Source: Xenophilus sp. Marseille-Q4582 | Lineage (GTDB): Bacteria > Pseudomonadota > Gammaproteobacteria > Burkholderiales > Burkholderiaceae_C | Assembly: GCF_916700565.1 (NCBI RefSeq) | Contig: NZ_CAKAKO010000001.1 | Span: 806,001-870,000, forward strand | Direction of reading: 5' to 3' | DNA: 64,000 nucleotides | Part shown: one piece after another, positions 20,689 to 30,070 of the stretch | How the letters are laid out: every line of letters starts with the position of its first letter | How positions within the stretch are numbered: the stretch's first letter is position 1 | Notes under the pieces: generated by a model | What the model was told of the DNA's origin: nothing | Seen by the model: only the letters and a program-made list of their open reading frames with translations | The model's database searches: none | Made by a program: the position numbers and the translations under genes

Positions 20689-21548
20689 TCCAGGGCTCCC
20701 TGGGTGCGAAGCTGGAAGGTGCTGCGGTACACCAGCCGAAGCCGGTTGCCGCGCGGCGTTTCCGCATTTCCCGGCGTCCACCCGCAGGGCCGGTAGGTGG
20801 TGTTCCCGGTGTCGATGACGTCGGTGCCCACCATCTCGAGGCAGACTTCCACGGCCTGGACCGAGGGCCAGCTGGCGGCCGCCGTGCTGGCGTCGACCCG
20901 ATCCACGACGGGTTCGCCGAGGACGCTGCGTTCGCGCAGCCAGCTCACCTGGAAGTCCGCCACGTCGGCGATCAGCGCCTGGGCACCTTCCCTGCTCTTG
21001 GACCCTGCGCATCGCAGTTCGCCGCTGGGTGCGCCGGCCGGCCGATGCAGGAAAAAGGCGCTTTGCACCAGGGTGCCACTGGGCGTGGAGCCCAGGCAAT
21101 CCCGCATCTGCCCGGCCGGCACCGAACTGTTGCTGGTCAGCTGTTCCAGGTAGAAGGCATAGCCGGTCTGCAAGGGGCGGGCGGTGCTGCTGGCGAGTGT
21201 CTGGGTGGCGCGCAGGAAGGTGGCGTCGAAGGCCACCGGCTCGGCCGGGTCCAGCGTCAGGAATCCGGTGGCAGGCGGCGTGCGCCCGTTGGCCAGATCC
21301 AGCCGCAGCGCGCCGGCCTGCCGCACCTGCTGGCCGATGATGCGCAAGGCGTAGGCGGCCTGCTGCTGCAATCGGGCGGCCTCGCTGGTGCTGCTGGACA
21401 GCTGGCGGGAGACCAGTACGGCGCCCAGTGCGACGGCAATGATCAGCAGGCCGATGGTCAGGCCCACCAGGATCTCGATCAGCGTGATGCCGCGCTGCCG
21501 GCCCGGACGCGCGCGCGGGGGCGCCCGGCGTGAGAAGGCGTGCTTCAT
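20685..21548 (-). CDS. pilW: Minor pilin PilW
   Basis: 287 aa from ATG 21548. Prepilin signal GRQRG|ITLIEILVGLTIGLLIIAVALGAVLVSRQ with Glu at mature position 5, followed by a large globular domain with Cys pairs (MRDCLGS, LRCAGSKS, VCLEMVG, RPCGWTP). The length and the position between pilV and pilX fit PilW. It overlaps both neighbours by 4 bases. Confidence 0.9.
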   Translation of the reverse strand: MKHAFSRRAPPRARPGRQRGITLIEILVGLTIGLLIIAVALGAVLVSRQLSSSTSEAARLQQQAAYALRIIGQQVRQAGALRLDLANGRTPPATGFLTLDPAEPVAFDATFLRATQTLASSTARPLQTGYAFYLEQLTSNSSVPAGQMRDCLGSTPSGTLVQSAFFLHRPAGAPSGELRCAGSKSREGAQALIADVADFQVSWLRERSVLGEPVVDRVDASTAAASWPSVQAVEVCLEMVGTDVIDTGNTTYRPCGWTPGNAETPRGNRLRLVYRSTFQLRTQGALE

Positions 21549-22192
21549 GGTGTGAGGGGCGTGGGACAGTGCAGGGTGTGGCTGGTCGGGCCGCTGAGCA
21601 GGCCGACCGTGCAGCGCGCGGTCGGCTGGATGTACTGCAGGTGGCAGATGCGGCCCGTGGGGCATTCCACGGCGGCCGAACCGGTGCTGGCGCTCAGGAA
21701 CGGGGCGCGATAGGCCTCGTGCTGCGCATCGCTTTCGTCCTTGAGCCGGCGTTCGCTTTCGCGCCAGCTGAGCATCACGCCCAGTTGCCGCCGGCCGCGG
21801 GTGTCGGATTCGTCCGCGACCAGGAAGGTGGCAGCGTCCCCCAGGGGCAAGGTGTCGGCCACCGTGGCCCACCAGCGGGCGATGTCCTGCTTGGCCAGAT
21901 CGCTGGAAGAGCAGCCGGAGGCGCAGCTGGGTGGCGTGCCGCTCGGGCCCCCCCAGTCCTGCGCGTAGTCGCCGAGCGTGGCCAGGGCATTGGGGTTGGC
22001 CTTCATGCGCTCGCTGAGGTCTTCGATGAGCCGCACGGCCTGTGCGCGGCGCACGGCGGTCTGCGTGTCGGCCAAGCTGCGCACCTGCACGCCGATGACG
22101 CCCAGGATCGCTACCGCCGTGATGACCAGGGCTACGAGCGACTCGAGCAAGGTGATGCCGCGTTGCGAGCGTACAGACGAAGTTCTCAACAT
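21545..22192 (-). CDS. pilV: Minor pilin PilV
   Basis: 215 aa. Prepilin signal SQRG|ITLLESLVALVITAVAILGVIGVQVRSL with Glu5, the LLESLVALVI form typical of PilV. Residues 45-70 (RRAQAVRLIEDLSERMKANP) match the family helix. Four or more Cys in the head domain (CASGCSSS, VECPTGRICHL). It overlaps pilW by 4 bases and the end of fimT by 7 bases. Confidence 0.9.
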   Translation of the reverse strand: MLRTSSVRSQRGITLLESLVALVITAVAILGVIGVQVRSLADTQTAVRRAQAVRLIEDLSERMKANPNALATLGDYAQDWGGPSGTPPSCASGCSSSDLAKQDIARWWATVADTLPLGDAATFLVADESDTRGRRQLGVMLSWRESERRLKDESDAQHEAYRAPFLSASTGSAAVECPTGRICHLQYIQPTARCTVGLLSGPTSHTLHCPTPLTP

Positions 22193-22752
22193 TCGGACAC
22201 TCCCTGGCGGATGTCGATGCGGCCCCCCGAACTCACGCAGATGGCCATGGAAATGCCGGAGCCGTCACGAAGCGGTTTGATGCCGAAACCATAGGCACCC
22301 AGTCCGTCTTCGCCCCAGCGGTTGAGACGAATGAACGAGACATCGTCGGAGCGTTTGACCTGCAACTGGCGCGGGGCGTGGCTGATGCGCAGCAGTTCCT
22401 CGCCGGCCTGCCGGACGCCATCGCCATTGCTGTCGACGAAGACCATCCATCCGCAGCCCCACTGCTCGGCGCCCGAGGTCGTACCGGGGCAGTCGGTGTC
22501 GTTGGGGGTGTTGCGCCGCAGGACGACGCCGCCGCCGCGCCGGATCGCTTCGCTGCGCGCGAAGGTCAGCGTGCTGGCCAGGTCTTCCGCGGCCTGGCGC
22601 ACGCGCCAGCGCTCAATGAGGGCGGTGAAGCTGGGGGCTGCGAGGGCAGCCAAAAGGCCGAGGATGGCCACGACCACCATGACTTCGATGGCGGTGAATC
22701 CTCGCTGCTCCCTGACTGCGCGCGGCCATGGGTGGCTCTTCGGCATGCCCAA
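22186..22752 (-). CDS. fimT: FimT/GspH-type pseudopilin
   Basis: 188 aa. Prepilin signal REQRG|FTAIEVMVVVAILGLLAALAAPSF with Glu5, and the GspH/FimT core (AAEDLASTLTFARSEAIRRGGGVVLRR, GWMVFVDSNGDG). FimT is known as a DNA-binding minor pilin needed for natural transformation in some species. First gene of the pilin operon. An alternative ATG is at 22746. The 165-bp leader to nrdR has short palindromes around 22790-22805 but no promoter I can defend. Confidence 0.88.
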   Translation of the reverse strand: MGMPKSHPWPRAVREQRGFTAIEVMVVVAILGLLAALAAPSFTALIERWRVRQAAEDLASTLTFARSEAIRRGGGVVLRRNTPNDTDCPGTTSGAEQWGCGWMVFVDSNGDGVRQAGEELLRISHAPRQLQVKRSDDVSFIRLNRWGEDGLGAYGFGIKPLRDGSGISMAICVSSGGRIDIRQGVSEC

Positions 22753-24649: not shown

Positions 24650-24843
24650 GGCAGTCCTTCGATGACAAGGGTTCTTGCGGTTCAAACCCGACAAGAACTG
24701 CCCAGGCGAACGGCTGATCGCCGGCCCGTCTCTGATCAGAACAGAAGGACGCAGCGGCGGTGCGCTTCCCAGTGGTCATTCCACGTCAGCAGCCGGCTTC
24801 GCCCGTGATGGACAGAAGCGGCGCCTATCGCCAGTCGCGCACG
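24650..24843 (-). ncRNA. ZTP (pfl) riboswitch in the glyA leader
   Basis: Read on the minus strand, the leader has the conserved pfl elements in order: GCGACTGGCG (from 24838), the paired element GTGGAATGACCAC, GGGAAGC, and the 3' block GCCGTTCGCCTGGGCA (24714-24699). These match the ZTP-binding pseudoknot consensus, and glyA is a known target of the class. Expression platform: GGCAGTTC (24702-24695), overlapping the conserved GGGCA, can pair over 8 bases with GGACTGCC (24657-24650), which contains the ribosome-binding site and touches the ATG. A competing hairpin, 24698-24671 (GTTCTTG/CAAGAAC), uses the same bases. Ligand binding should free the start site. A -10-like TAAACT at 24855-24850 would start transcription just before the aptamer. 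Confidence 0.9.
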
Positions 24844-24880
24844 CGCCCGAGTTTAGCCGAGCGGCGCGCCGGTTTCAGGA

Positions 24881-25711
24881 TCAGGAAGCCGCCAGCAGCG
24901 CCACGCTTTCAGCCGGCGCCGGCGCCGGGCTTGCGGCAGGCGCCACCACCGGGATGGTCTGCGGCGCCGCGGCCGGCGGGAGCACGGGCACGGGCTGGCC
25001 GCCGGCCACGCGCTGCAGGCGGTCGCGCTCGGCCAGCACCTTGGCGGCGTACCCTCCGTCGCTCGGGAGGTTGGCGGCTCCCACGTAGTGGCGCAGGCCT
25101 CCTTCCACCGAGCCGGCGCGGCGGATGCATTCCTGCAGCACCTTCACGCCCACCCGCATGTTGGTGATGGGGTCGAAGGCCGTGAGCACGCCGCCTGCGC
25201 TCTCATATTTGTCGCCATGCACGCGCGTCATCACCTGCATGAGCCCCTGCGCGCCCACATGGCTTTGCGCGAAGGGATTGAAGCTGGATTCCACCGCCAT
25301 GATGGCGAGGATCAGCGTCGGATCCAGCTGGGTCTTGGCGCCGATCTGGTAGGCCTCGGCCACCAGCACGCTCAGCGGCTCGGCCGCCACGCGGTACTTG
25401 CGGCTGAGCCAGTAGGCCACGGCGGCCTGCGGGCGCGGCAGCTCGTGGGGGCTGGCGGCCGTGGTCCGGTCGATCGCCGTGGGCGACAACTCGGTGGGCT
25501 CGGGCGCCGGCTTGCGCGATTCGAGCCAGGCCATCAGGCGTTGCTCGCCGGCCTGTTGGAGGTCGGGGCGGGCCAGCAGCGCCACCACGGCAAAAACAAG
25601 GGCCAGCCCGATCAGGGCGAAGCCGTTATGGGTGATTTCGAAGAAGCCTTCGATCACGTCACCCGCGAAGGTCTTGAGCCCCTGGCCGGCGGCGGTCAGT
25701 GCAGCTTTCAT
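24881..25711 (-). CDS. Membrane-anchored lytic transglycosylase (SLT domain)
   Basis: 276 aa. One transmembrane segment (about residues 31-49, GFALIGLALVFAVVALLA), a linker, then an SLT/goose-lysozyme-like domain (about 120-235). The catalytic Glu lies in AIMAVESSFNPFAQSHVGAQGLMQVM, followed by the family blocks AFDPITNMRVGVKVL and LRHYVGAANL. It cleaves the MurNAc-GlcNAc bond of peptidoglycan on the periplasmic face. The C-terminus is Pro/Ala-rich and unstructured. Transcription probably starts near 25921 (promoter at 25928-25955), giving a roughly 210-base leader that contains a stable hairpin (25855-25881). Confidence 0.88.
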   Translation of the reverse strand: MKAALTAAGQGLKTFAGDVIEGFFEITHNGFALIGLALVFAVVALLARPDLQQAGEQRLMAWLESRKPAPEPTELSPTAIDRTTAASPHELPRPQAAVAYWLSRKYRVAAEPLSVLVAEAYQIGAKTQLDPTLILAIMAVESSFNPFAQSHVGAQGLMQVMTRVHGDKYESAGGVLTAFDPITNMRVGVKVLQECIRRAGSVEGGLRHYVGAANLPSDGGYAAKVLAERDRLQRVAGGQPVPVLPPAAAPQTIPVVAPAASPAPAPAESVALLAAS

Positions 25712-25927
25712 TCGCGCGTCCTTTCGATGCGCTCTCCTTGCCGTGGCTGCCGGACGGAACCGGGGCAGCCAGTGGATTCGATCGCGCGTGGATTGGCAGG
25801 AACCGGGCCAGCCCTCGCAAGATGCGTGAAGAGGGGGAGGGCTGATCTGCGCCGGTTGCGCCGGGACCTTGTCCCGGCAACGTCGTCTGGGGACCCGCGC
25901 AGGCATCAGGGAGGCGGGCCGGCGCGC

Positions 25928-25955
25928 ATTTTAAGTTCTCCATATATCGAGTCAA
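25928..25955 (-). promoter_or_regulatory. Sigma-70-type promoter for the lytic transglycosylase gene
   Basis: On the minus strand: TTGACT (25955-25950), a 16-base spacer, TAAAAT (25933-25928), within an AT-rich island (25928-26040) that stands out in this GC-rich DNA. It is the best sigma-70 match in the window. The predicted start near 25921 leaves a leader of about 210 bases. Confidence 0.65.
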
Positions 25956-26072
25956 CAATAACAAATCGAAACTTAATTCTTGGAGGTTGTTTTTTGCTGG
26001 TTTTGGATGGAGCGCGCGATCGATTGCTTTTTTGCATTTGCGTCACTGCGTCCGGGGGTCTAACCTGCACTG

Positions 26073-26270
26073 GCCTGCTCGTTCAGGCGCTCCGCCCGAA
26101 CCGGACTCCACGCGTTGACGAGTGATACGGTGACGGCAACCCTGGTGGCAATCTCTTGCCACCCGACCGGAGGAACCTCCTTCTTCCTGCCGGCGAAAAG
26201 ATGGCAGCGACCTGGTGTCGGCCATCGGGCCCGGTGACAGGACTGTGCGTCATGTCACCGGGCTTTCTTG
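26073..26270 (+). ncRNA. Unidentified structured RNA: five tandem hairpins ending in a terminator
   Basis: Five hairpins follow one another with little between them. P0 26081-26101 (GTTC-GGCG / CGCC-GAAC). P1 26144-26163 (GGTGGCAA-tctc-TTGCCACC, perfect). P2 26167-26193 (CCGGAGGAA / TTCCT-CCGG with loop CCTCCTTC). P3 26200-26226 (GATGGC-CGAC / GTCG-GCCATC). P4 26229-26263, an 11-bp perfect stem followed by TTTCTTGTTT, a rho-independent terminator. The P2 loop is complementary to Shine-Dalgarno sequences. A weak promoter candidate is TTGCGT (26038), 17 bases, TAACCT (26061). No long coding frame fits this stretch. It could be a free sRNA or the leader/attenuator of the DUF748 gene 57 bases downstream. 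I compared it by eye with common riboswitches, 6S and 4.5S RNA and found no match. Confidence 0.65.
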
Positions 26271-26272
26271 TT
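26229..26272 (+). terminator. Strong rho-independent terminator
   Basis: GCCCGGTGACA, a 13-base loop, TGTCACCGGGC, then TTTCTTGTTT. It ends the structured RNA and lies upstream of the DUF748 start at 26327. Confidence 0.85.
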
Positions 26273-26326
26273 TCCGGAACAGCTTTTCACAGGTGCGGCA
26301 TCCACTTGGGGCACACTCCCCGAGTC

Positions 26327-29300
26327 ATGAATGCCGCCGTGCCAAGAAACCGGAAATGGGTGCGACGTGGGATCGTCGCGTTGGGAACGCTGCTCGGCCT
26401 GTGGCTGCTCCTGTGGCTGGCCGTGCCACCGCTGGCCAAGAGCCAGATCCAGAAAATCGCGAGTGCGCAGCTGGGCCGCCAGGTCACGCTGGAGCGCGTG
26501 GACTTCCGGCCCTGGTCGCTGGAGCTGGCATTGGAGGGGTTGCGCGTGGCAGGCACGCAGCCTGACGAGCCGCTGCTGCAAGTGCGCCGCATCTATGCGG
26601 ATGCCGAGCTGCAGTCGGTGCTGCGCCTGGCGCCGGTCATCGACGCCCTGCGCATCGAGGCGCCGGTGCTGCGCATCGCGCGGCTGGCCGACGGCCGCTA
26701 CGACATCGACGACCTGCTGGCCCGCTGGACGCGCCCGGCCGACCCGCCTGCGCCCGCGAGCGAGCCGGCGGGTTTCGCGGTCTACAACATCGCGGTGTCC
26801 GACGGGGCGGCCTACTTCCAGGACCAGCCAGCCGGCCGCGACCACGTGCTGCGCGACCTGAAGCTCGCCGTGCCCTTCGTGAGCAGCCTGAAGTCGCAGC
26901 GCGAGGTCAAGGTCGAGCCGCATCTGTCCTTCGTGCTCAACGACAGTCCCTTCGATTCCAGCGCCTTCACCACGCCCTTCGTCGACAGCCGCAAGACCGA
27001 GGCGCGGCTCGACTTCTCCGGTTTCGACCTCGCCCCCTATCTGGGCTATGTGCCCAAGGGGCTGCCCGTGCAGCTGCAATCCGGCGTGCTGGGCGCCCGG
27101 CTCAAGCTGGAATTCGAGCAGGCGCAGCCGCCGGTGCTGCGCATCCAGGGCGAGGTGACGGCCGAGCGCGTGGCCGCGCGCGACGCCCAGGGCCGCGAAC
27201 TGCTCGATTTCGAGGCGCTGCGCCTGGCGCTCGCCGATGTGCAGCCGCTGGCGCGCCGTGTGCACCTGGCGGAAGTGACGCTCACCCAGCCGCGCATGAC
27301 GGTGGCCCGCGATGCGCAGGGGCGCCTGAACGTGGTGCCGCAAGGCGAGCCCGCGGCTGCGGCGCCTGCGCCTGCCGCGCCCGAGCCTGCGTCACCCGCC
27401 GCCCCCTGGCAGGCGCAGGTGGACCGCCTCGTGCTGCAGGATGGCCGGATCGGCTGGCGCGACGCCGCGGTGAAGAAGGGCGCCACGGTCGACCTGGAGG
27501 CGCTGCAGCTGGAGGTGCAGGCCGTGCACTGGCCCATGACGCAGCCCGCGCGCTTCACCGGCGGCTTCCGGATCGACGGCGCGCCGTTCCAGCTGGAAGG
27601 CGAAGGCACCGACAAGGCCGCCACCGTGCGCGCGCAGGTCCAGGGCCTGCCGCTGAGCCTGGCGGGCGCCTACCTGGCCGAGACGCTGGCGCCCGCGGTC
27701 GCCGGCAAGCTCGATGCGCAGATCGAGGCGCAATGGGCGGCGCCGGCGCTCAAGCTGCTGGCCAGGCAGGCCAGCATCGACGATCTCGCGCTCACGCAGG
27801 GCAAGACGGCGCTGGCCAGCGTGGGCCGCTTCGAACTCGGCGACGTGGCGGTGGACCTGCCAGCGCGCGACGTGCGCATCGGCCGGCTGTCGGTGCGCAA
27901 CCCCAAACTGCGCGTGGAGCGCGACAGCGAGCAGCGGTGGATGTACGAGCGCTGGCTGCTGGCGCCGCAGGGCGCCGGGGCGGTGAAGACCGCCGCCCCT
28001 TCGGCGCAGCCGCCCGCCCCGCCGTGGAAGATGCGCATCGACGCGCTGACCATGGACAACGGCACGGTGGCTTATGCCGACAAGGCCCAGCCGCAGGCCG
28101 TGGAAGTGGAAGTCAGTGCCCTGCAGATCAAGGCCGGCCCCATCGTGCCGGACAGCGCGACGGTGGCGTCGCTGGCGCTGTCGGGCCGGCTGGCGTCCGG
28201 GCGGCGCGCCGAGCCGGGGCGCTTCGATTACCAGGGGCAGCTGACGCTCCAGCCGCTCTCGACCCAGGGCCGGCTGCAGACGCAGTCCATGCCGGCCCAC
28301 GCCTTCAAGGCCTACTACGCCGACGCGCTCAATGTGGACATCCGGCGCGCCTACACCAACTTCCGCGGCAGCTTCGCGCTGGCCCTGCCCCCCGAAGGCT
28401 TGCGGCTCAAGGTGGCGGGCGACTCGGCCATCGAGGACTTCCGCGCCAACAGTGCCACCCTGACGCAGTCCGCCACGCTGGGCGGGCGCGACGAACAGCT
28501 GCTGAGCTGGAAGGTGTTGAGCCTGCGCGGCCTGAAGGTGGACATGGCGCCCAAGGCCCCGCTGAAGGTGGACGTGAGCGAAACCACGCTCACCGATTTC
28601 TTCGCGCGCATCATCCTGGAGGAGTCGGGCCGCCTGAACCTGCAGAACCTGACGAAGAAGGGCCAGCAGGAGGGCGAGGCCGCCGCGGCGCAAAGAACGC
28701 AGGCCACCAGCCGCCGGGAGGCCGGTGGCACGACGGTCACGACCCGTGCCGCCCCGGCCCAGGCGGCTGCGCGCCCGGTGTCCGCCGAGGAGCAGGTGGG
28801 TGCGGACGCGCCGGCACCCGCGGCCGCACCGGTGGCGGCCGCAGCCCCCGGGGCGGCCGCGGGCGGCCCGGCGCCGATCATCCATTTCGGCCCCGTGAGC
28901 GTGGTCAACGGCCGGGTGGATTTCACCGATCTGTTCATCAAGCCCAACTACTCGGCCGACCTCAGCGAACTCACGGGCCGGCTCAGCGCCTTCTCGTCGC
29001 AGCCCCGCGAAGGCCAGCCGGCGCTGGCTGATCTGGAACTGCGCGGCAAGGCGCAGCAGACCGCGCCGCTGGAAATCACGGGCCGGATCAACCCGCTGGC
29101 CCAGCCGCTGGAGCTGGACATCACTGCCCGCATGCGTGACCTGGACCTGCCGCCGCTGTCGCCGTACTCGGTGCGCTACGCGGGCCACGGCATCGAGCGC
29201 GGCAAGCTCAGCATGGACGTGAACTACCAGGTCGCGCCGGACGGGCGCCTCACGGCCACCAACAAGCTGGTGCTCAACCAGCTGCGCTTCGGCGACGAGG

Positions 29301-30070
29301 TGAAGGACGCGCCCAACAGCCTGCCGGTGCGGCTGGCCGTGGCGCTGCTGGCCGATCGCAACGGCGTGATCGACGTGGAGCTGCCCCTGTGGGGCTCCCT
29401 CAACGATCCCCAGTTCCGCGTCGGTCCGCTGATCTGGAAGGCCGTGCTCAACCTGATCACCAAGGCCGTCACGGCGCCTTTCAGCCTGCTGACCGGCGGC
29501 CTGGGGGGCGGTTCGGGCGATTCGAGCACCGTGCCCTTTGCGGCGGGCAGCGCCGTGCTGTCGGACGAGGCGAAGAAAAGCCTGGACCAGGTCGTCAAGG
29601 CGTTGACCGACCGGCCCGAGCTGCGCCTGACGGTGGTTGGCGTGTCCAGCTTCGAGAAGGAGCGCGAGGCCTTCCGCCGCCAGCGGCTGCGCGAGATGGC
29701 GCTGTCCGAAAAGCGCCGGGCCGCCGTGCGCGCCGGGCAGGACCCGCGCCAGGTGGCGCCGGTGAGCGATGCGGAATACCCGGCGCTGGTAGAGGCGGTC
29801 TACAAGCGTGCCGACATCACCAAGCCGCGCAACATGGTCGGCCTGGCGCGCGACCTGCCCACCTCCGAAATGGAGGCGCTGCTGCTGGCCAGCATCCCGG
29901 TCGACGCCCAGGCCATCCGCGAACTGGCCGTGGCGCGCGGCGCCGCCGTGCGCGACTACCTGCTGGAGCGCCAGCTGCCCTCTGAGCGCCTCTTCCTGGG
30001 CAATGTGCGCACCGACGGGCAGGGCAGCGACTGGAAGCCCGGGGCCGAATTGCAGCTGGACGCACGCTGA
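26327..30070 (+). CDS. Large AsmA-like DUF748 envelope protein
   Basis: 1247 aa from ATG 26327; frames further upstream cross the structured RNA and are unlikely to be coding. One N-terminal transmembrane helix (about residues 15-35, LGTLLGLWLLLWLAVPPLA), then IQKIASAQLGRQVTLERVDFRPWSLELALEGL, the typical opening of DUF748/AsmA-like proteins. The body is repetitive beta-rich sequence with Ala/Pro-rich low-complexity parts near residues 340-420 and 790-850. The last quarter (VPFAAGSAVLSDEAKKSLDQVVKALTDRPELRLTVVG) resembles an OmpA-like peptidoglycan-binding start. AsmA-like proteins are thought to bridge the periplasm and move phospholipids to the outer membrane; for this member that is inference. 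There is no Shine-Dalgarno at the start. Confidence 0.85.
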   Translation: MNAAVPRNRKWVRRGIVALGTLLGLWLLLWLAVPPLAKSQIQKIASAQLGRQVTLERVDFRPWSLELALEGLRVAGTQPDEPLLQVRRIYADAELQSVLRLAPVIDALRIEAPVLRIARLADGRYDIDDLLARWTRPADPPAPASEPAGFAVYNIAVSDGAAYFQDQPAGRDHVLRDLKLAVPFVSSLKSQREVKVEPHLSFVLNDSPFDSSAFTTPFVDSRKTEARLDFSGFDLAPYLGYVPKGLPVQLQSGVLGARLKLEFEQAQPPVLRIQGEVTAERVAARDAQGRELLDFEALRLALADVQPLARRVHLAEVTLTQPRMTVARDAQGRLNVVPQGEPAAAAPAPAAPEPASPAAPWQAQVDRLVLQDGRIGWRDAAVKKGATVDLEALQLEVQAVHWPMTQPARFTGGFRIDGAPFQLEGEGTDKAATVRAQVQGLPLSLAGAYLAETLAPAVAGKLDAQIEAQWAAPALKLLARQASIDDLALTQGKTALASVGRFELGDVAVDLPARDVRIGRLSVRNPKLRVERDSEQRWMYERWLLAPQGAGAVKTAAPSAQPPAPPWKMRIDALTMDNGTVAYADKAQPQAVEVEVSALQIKAGPIVPDSATVASLALSGRLASGRRAEPGRFDYQGQLTLQPLSTQGRLQTQSMPAHAFKAYYADALNVDIRRAYTNFRGSFALALPPEGLRLKVAGDSAIEDFRANSATLTQSATLGGRDEQLLSWKVLSLRGLKVDMAPKAPLKVDVSETTLTDFFARIILEESGRLNLQNLTKKGQQEGEAAAAQRTQATSRREAGGTTVTTRAAPAQAAARPVSAEEQVGADAPAPAAAPVAAAAPGAAAGGPAPIIHFGPVSVVNGRVDFTDLFIKPNYSADLSELTGRLSAFSSQPREGQPALADLELRGKAQQTAPLEITGRINPLAQPLELDITARMRDLDLPPLSPYSVRYAGHGIERGKLSMDVNYQVAPDGRLTATNKLVLNQLRFGDEVKDAPNSLPVRLAVALLADRNGVIDVELPLWGSLNDPQFRVGPLIWKAVLNLITKAVTAPFSLLTGGLGGGSGDSSTVPFAAGSAVLSDEAKKSLDQVVKALTDRPELRLTVVGVSSFEKEREAFRRQRLREMALSEKRRAAVRAGQDPRQVAPVSDAEYPALVEAVYKRADITKPRNMVGLARDLPTSEMEALLLASIPVDAQAIRELAVARGAAVRDYLLERQLPSERLFLGNVRTDGQGSDWKPGAELQLDAR

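Follow-up and report, generated by a model that had tools for sequence, protein, structure and literature searches.

The intergenic stretch at positions 26073-26270 of the window (the whole 64,000 nucleotides of Xenophilus sp. Marseille-Q4582 DNA analysed here) raises the question of whether it encodes an RNA that works by itself or an attenuator for the large AsmA-like gene that follows. An initial annotation, made from the sequence letters, had left both options standing. Comparison with relatives identifies the stretch as a conserved RNA gene, the transcription of which we infer.

Location and fold of the RNA

The RNA and its elements, all on the plus strand, were placed as follows.

26073-26270, plus strand: structured small RNA gene of about 200 nt, ends predicted; supported by fold, covariance matches and covariation
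26073-26088, plus strand: P1 hairpin, GCCUG-(6)-CAGGC; pairing kept in relatives of one clade
26089-26143, plus strand: P2 domain, variable between clades; its closing stem GCCGG/CCGGC covaries in one clade
26144-26163, plus strand: P3 hairpin, GGUGGCAA-UCUC-UUGCCACC; perfect 8 bp with loop UCUC
26167-26193, plus strand: P4 hairpin, with CCUCCUUC as its loop (26176-26183); both helices covary
26200-26226, plus strand: P5 hairpin, GAUGGC/GCCAUC with an inner stem; covariation
26227-26273, plus strand: long terminator hairpin and U-rich tail; fold, covariation and tail

The minimum free energy (MFE) of 26073-26270 is -97 kcal/mol (z = -3.06), beating 200 of 200 dinucleotide shuffles, and this, together with the strong covariation described below, bears out the earlier claim of a non-coding structured RNA of about 200 bases. 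As far as sequence comparison goes, the stretch is thus confirmed to specify a genuine structured RNA, for which a terminator and a promoter, the latter weak, are predicted. The five consecutive hairpins of the initial annotation hold in part: the perfect P3, P4, P5 and the terminator are all recovered, while relatives indicate a general layout of six elements (P1, P2, P3, P4, P5 and the terminator), the first of which is missing from the minimum-energy fold of the window itself. The P2 domain is diverged in the genus of the window.

The U-rich tail at 26264-26273 fits the predicted 3' end of the RNA. The terminator was not listed by a consensus scan of 25800-26500, which we read as a consequence of its uninterrupted stem closing a loop beyond the length allowed by that scan. 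Among the 181 homologues whose stem end could be recognised, an average of 7.3 of the first 10 tail bases are U, and the U-tract is mostly broken by C (UUUCU, UUUCUU), the longest U run being 3 in 111 of them, 4 in 19 and at least 5 in 51.

Distribution

DNA similarity finds the RNA in 10 of the 15 genomes of the genus, its own included. Two covariance models were then used, namely R1, built from nine genus sequences and covering P3, P5 and the terminator only, and R2, built from 52 sequences and covering all 3' helices. R1 matches 83 of 299 genomes of the GTDB family. R2 matches all 15 genus genomes, with a single copy in each, and 155 of the 399 genomes sampled from the GTDB family, belonging to 60 of 141 genera, leaving 244 of the 399 without a match. 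Within the own genome no second copy of the RNA was found; the only other DNA match there comprises 27 bases around P1 (26067-26093), which are 93% matched at C1:265854-265880.

Among 300 genomes of the order R2 returned eight matches, six of them from the same family and two marginal, and among 274 genomes of the class it returned three, all from the same family. Nothing convincing was therefore found outside the GTDB family in these 300 and 274 genomes, an absence that is not proof because filters were stricter whenever over 40 genomes were searched, with only 8-12 candidates scored per genome. The marginal matches L101 and L102, outside the family (E 6e-4 and 1e-3), miss the usual neighbours and were treated as chance; they were left out of the promoter, 197-sequence, neighbour and inverted-repeat counts given below. 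A pattern scan of named genomes provided at least 119 loci, and all of those listed are also R2 matches. Many of them are MAGs whose titles stop at a higher rank; where a title gives a genus, it is always one that we take to belong to Comamonadaceae. The genera among the loci listed include Variovorax, Acidovorax, Paracidovorax, Rhodoferax, Ramlibacter, Curvibacter, Hydrogenophaga, Xylophilus and others.

Covariation

Covariation was mainly evaluated on a MAFFT alignment of 52 sequences, with the structure derived from the same alignment. These sequences were chosen by the analyst from the 78 left after redundancy removal (90 initially), and they had been found with R1, so that P3, P5 and the terminator are biased towards that model. 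Across the alignment 91.3% of cells are paired and 27 of 40 pairs exhibit changes on both sides; none of 500 shuffles reaches any of five covariation measures, and sliding the partners lowers pairing to 30-48%. Compensatory changes in relatives, which the initial annotation had proposed to look for, are thus present. Regarding the individual elements, P3 has 99.0% of its cells paired and both-side changes in 3 of 8 pairs, P5 is paired in 97.4% of cells in its outer helix and 78.7% in its inner one, and the terminator is paired in 89.9% of cells, with both-side changes in 11 of 15 pairs. P4 shows both-side changes in all 4 outer pairs and in 3 of the 4 inner ones and, being absent from R1 and yet covarying, escapes the bias towards it. 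Four base pairs at the foot of the terminator are invariant in 52 of 52 sequences, and G-U pairs occur among the pairs retained.

A second set of 197 distinct sequences, unselected apart from the removal of duplicates and of the two marginal matches, was also explored. Its 12 strongest covarying column pairs are all structural, as are 23 of its best 60, and neither a pseudoknot nor an alternative pairing appears among the strongest covarying pairs. At 85% identity, conserved unpaired runs in this set do not exceed 1 nt. When four clades were considered separately (assigned by the analyst from titles and similarity, with 32/37, 32/34, 31/32 and 9/12 of the listed loci used), the only conserved unpaired runs of at least 4 nt were the P3 loop UCUC in Variovorax and, in Xenophilus, AAUCU, which belongs to the -10 box. 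In general, some stem segments are kept in sequence, and loops and linkers drift.

The 5' domain was analysed with 35 sequences picked by eye from the 90 for a common 5' layout, that is, with relatives of one clade. P1 is paired in 97.7% of cells, with both-side changes in 4 of 5 pairs, and the P2 closing stem GCCGG/CCGGC in 96.5%, with 2 of 5 pairs double-changed; the inner stem of P2 is weak (63.8% paired, no double change). In this test none of 500 shuffles attained three of the five measures, and 7 and 8, respectively, attained the remaining two.

The P4 loop

The loop called P2 in the initial annotation, here P4, had been regarded as complementary to ribosome-binding sites, as in anti-Shine-Dalgarno sRNAs. 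Its distribution does not support it as the working part of the RNA. In the window it reads CCTCCTTC (26176-26183) and in the closest relative, L002, CCGUUUCUC. Among 175 distinct homologues, CCUCC occurs inside the P4 loop in one, the window itself, and CUCCU in three. The loop is 8 nt long in 143 of the 175; in 140 of the 143 it begins and ends with C, and the six inner bases drift; other trimming of gapped stems gives 138 loops of 8 nt, with C first in 136 and C last in 136. P4 loops are 71% pyrimidine, and some recur, such as CCAUUGAC (12 times), CUCGACUC (10) and CCUUCAUC (10). Over the whole model region, 80 of the 175 homologues contain CCUCC, and in 62 of these it comes from the 3' arm or loop of P3. 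There it is engaged in pairing, and in many other species the variable pairs of P3 replace these letters with pairing kept; opening of the hairpin could expose this P3-region CCUCC. Within the set compared, the anti-Shine-Dalgarno (anti-SD) P4 loop is real but private to the window sequence, and chance would suffice as its explanation. Membership in the known anti-SD sRNAs (RF02278/BdhR1, S17) is not supported, the conserved single-stranded anti-SD or CU-rich site expected of them being absent from the present RNA.

Promoter and upstream inverted repeat

26038-26066, plus strand: predicted sigma70-type promoter, with -35 TTGCGT at 26038-26043, a 17-nt spacer and -10 TAACCT at 26061-26066

This promoter is weak, matching 6 of 12 sigma70 consensus positions, and a stricter consensus scan of 25800-26500 lists no plus-strand promoter. 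The best upstream promoter score averages 9.47 in 196 homologues versus 7.57 in shuffled sequences (one shuffle each, under a score that rewards TTG and TAnnnT in the control as well), that of the window being 8.5. Homologue promoters usually display TTGnnn and TAnnnT boxes, and it is mainly this conservation in relatives that leads us to predict the promoter of the window.

An inverted repeat, CAAT(C/G)-N-(C/G/T)ATTGA, lies ahead of the -35 box in 89 of the 196 homologues, versus 0.5 expected from simple shuffles, with the reservation that the 89 carriers are related and do not represent independent events. With a spacing of 6 to 24 allowed, it is 14 in 78 of them, 13 in nine, and 10 and 23 in one each. 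The repeat sits 100-215 nt upstream of the R2 start (L243, L244, L247, L249 and others), and in 81 homologues that have spacing 14 it is followed at a fixed distance by an A-rich stretch and the -35 box. In eight chosen genomes a stricter form of the repeat occurs once, at the RNA locus, in four, two to three times in three, and is absent from one; a regulon readable from the repeat was consequently discarded, given only 0-3 sites per genome. No clear copy is present in the window. These observations suggest that the inverted repeat may be the site of a narrow transcription factor.

Genomic neighbours

24881-25711, minus strand: divergent neighbour, lytic transglycosylase (SLT domain; Pfam PF01464)
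26327-30070, plus strand: downstream gene, DUF748/AsmA-like protein (Pfam PF05359, PF05170)

The downstream gene starts about 55 nt past the end of the model in the window, and elsewhere the distance is sometimes 40-60 nt. Neighbours were counted over 204 distinct loci, 194 of them with at least 1 kb of upstream and 183 with at least 1.2 kb of downstream sequence. The divergent transglycosylase gene lies upstream in 186 of the 194. Within 900 nt downstream, a DUF748 gene is found at 111 of the 183 loci and a DUF349 gene instead at 56, so that one or the other, co-directional with the RNA, follows at 167, and neither at 16; at one of these 16 (L222) DUF748 lies farther on.

The usual neighbours were not found at the five loci of genus g62, at L235 or at L238, the last being a diverged match. 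The g62 genomes (L093, L095, L229, L240, L241) have the RNA at a different locus, where the next frame is convergent in five of five. A CxxCH haem motif appears in that frame in the four inspected (L093, L229, L095, L241), from which we take it to be cytochrome c-like; in L240 a long convergent frame was judged from its first letters. In L238 the longest frame is also convergent. That the RNA is kept where the AsmA/DUF748 gene is missing, and at unrelated loci, indicates its independence from the AsmA-like gene. Some read-through into a close co-directional gene is nonetheless plausible, and a cis role besides the trans role is possible where the gene follows closely.

Other features of the window were also recorded. 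A ZMP/ZTP riboswitch (RF01750, 46.1 bits) occupies 24693-24848 on the minus strand, before a serine hydroxymethyltransferase gene; it is ordinary and also present in several relatives. Further away, at about 21500-22750 on the minus strand, open reading frames with the prepilin-like N-termini GITLLESLVALV and GFTAIEVMVVVAILG presumably encode minor type IV pilins, judging from the motif.

Proposed function and alternatives

The conserved fold, the predicted own promoter and terminator, and the independence from the neighbours together match a free-standing structured sRNA. We favour, with a probability of about 0.5, a free-standing Comamonadaceae sRNA that acts in trans, by its shape, on an RNA-binding protein. 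Its transcription would start at its own sigma70-type promoter and end at its own terminator, and selection would maintain the hairpin row P1-P2-P3-P4-P5-terminator with loops and linkers free to vary. By a mechanism that we infer, the RNA would be a ligand, decoy or scaffold for the protein. ProQ/FinO-type proteins bind hairpin and terminator ends, and one of them would be the natural candidate partner, a choice made from general knowledge; the genome contains one ProQ-domain gene, and an Hfq gene is also present. Points against this reading are the 244 of 399 family genomes without a match, the poor consensus match of the promoter in the window, and the missing clear inverted repeat there. 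Stems that are kept and loops that are free are what would be expected if a protein reads the fold. Antisense RNAs normally retain an unpaired seed, and the lack of a family-wide conserved unpaired stretch argues against a common antisense seed.

Drifting loops would also suit an sRNA that acts by base pairing on targets differing from species to species. The protein-binding trans RNA is favoured, with base pairing to clade-specific targets nearly as likely. Such an sRNA, a tentative reading in our estimate, would act with the assistance of Hfq or ProQ through the P3 and P4 loops or the 5' domain, with seeds and targets particular to each clade, and the P4 loop of the window would then serve as an anti-Shine-Dalgarno. 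The predicted promoter and terminator, the Hfq and ProQ genes, and the pyrimidine-rich and partly recurring P4 loops are all compatible with it, but no conserved unpaired seed is observed either family-wide or in any of the four clades, and the anti-SD loop is seen in only 1 of 175 homologues. Hfq prefers a long 3' U run, for which tails with a longest run of only 3 U (111 of 181) are poor. Precedents exist, since the anti-SD sRNAs S17 and BdhR1 are known in betaproteobacteria (PMC11722255).

A cis leader or attenuator, in which the downstream transcript would begin with this RNA and a signal would let transcription continue past the terminator, is improbable. It would account for the co-directional DUF748 or DUF349 gene within 900 nt at 167 of 183 loci (with a gap of about 55 nt in the window) and for the scan listing no same-strand promoter between the RNA and that gene. 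On the contrary, 16 of the 183 loci have neither gene within this distance, the five g62 genomes have the RNA beside the convergent, presumably cytochrome c-like frame, L235 and the diverged L238 place it at other loci, and the strongest covarying pairs include no alternative pairing. Of the two options of the initial annotation, it is therefore the free-standing sRNA that stands, while the AsmA attenuator is at odds with a DUF748 gene within 900 nt at only 111 of 183 loci. That the conserved entity is DNA, with inverted repeats or cruciforms bound by protein, is scarcely credible: invariant stem segments such as the four base pairs at the terminator base (52 of 52) could be so explained, but not the flanking promoter and U-rich tail, one at each side, the variable linkers between tandem hairpins, or the G-U pairs among those retained.

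Beyond the trans-acting, protein-binding sRNA preferred here, we consider doubtful a bolder proposal in which the family-wide, single-copy, six-element RNA is the core of an as yet undescribed Comamonadaceae ribonucleoprotein or protein-titration switch, placed in many genera under a dedicated regulator of the 25-bp inverted repeat; that this repeat would have few or no other genomic sites is a further, similarly speculative part of it. With matches in 60 of 141 sampled genera of the GTDB family and a fold preserved through compensatory changes, this single-copy RNA very probably matters to its hosts.

Comparison with known systems

Rfam searches at gathering as well as permissive thresholds yield no family for this RNA. 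Those of the whole window return only a tRNA and the ZMP-ZTP riboswitch, both elsewhere; those of 25900-26400 with E up to 5 return two sub-threshold eukaryotic families on the opposite strand, and those of 18 + 10 homologous loci only ZMP-ZTP. The earlier failure to assign the RNA to a known class is consequently corroborated for the window and its homologues. No description of the RNA was found in the open-licence PMC literature searched, a search that would miss sequences listed without a name in supplements or tables of sRNAs, nor in the accessible text of PMC3110155, PMC11722255, PMC5688073, PMC11109978, PMC2864571 and PMC8632094. The Burkholderiales-1 motif (Weinberg et al. 2010) is also a candidate structured Burkholderiales RNA, known here from its table and text description; it is rated ambiguous as RNA and has no Rfam accession in Table 1 (PMC2864571). 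Set beside Burkholderiales-1 by description only, the present RNA is, on these searches, a new candidate family absent from Rfam; the alignments and models make it testable in environmental strains and could seed an Rfam entry.

The toxic_small_RNA family (RF02278/BdhR1), the ncS27 double-hairpin RNAs and Bordetella S17 are likewise intergenic Burkholderiales RNAs with their own promoter and terminator. S17 has a 27-nt region identical across betaproteobacteria (PMC11722255) and ncS27-type RNAs have CU-rich unpaired regions (PMC5688073). Unlike these S17- and ncS27-type RNAs, the one presented here has neither a conserved unpaired site nor an Rfam match.

The hairpin row, the fold kept over sequence and perhaps the binding of a protein recall the CsrB/RsmZ sRNAs. 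These sequester protein with a row of hairpins, their fold being kept while sequence varies. The difference lies in GGA, which appears in the P3, P4 and P5 loops of none of 175 homologues and in the terminator loop of 12; a CsrA sponge was accordingly considered unlikely. With attenuators and riboswitches the RNA shares, in most genomes, a folded structure and a terminator before a gene, but it differs from them in being kept where that gene is missing or where the next frame is convergent.
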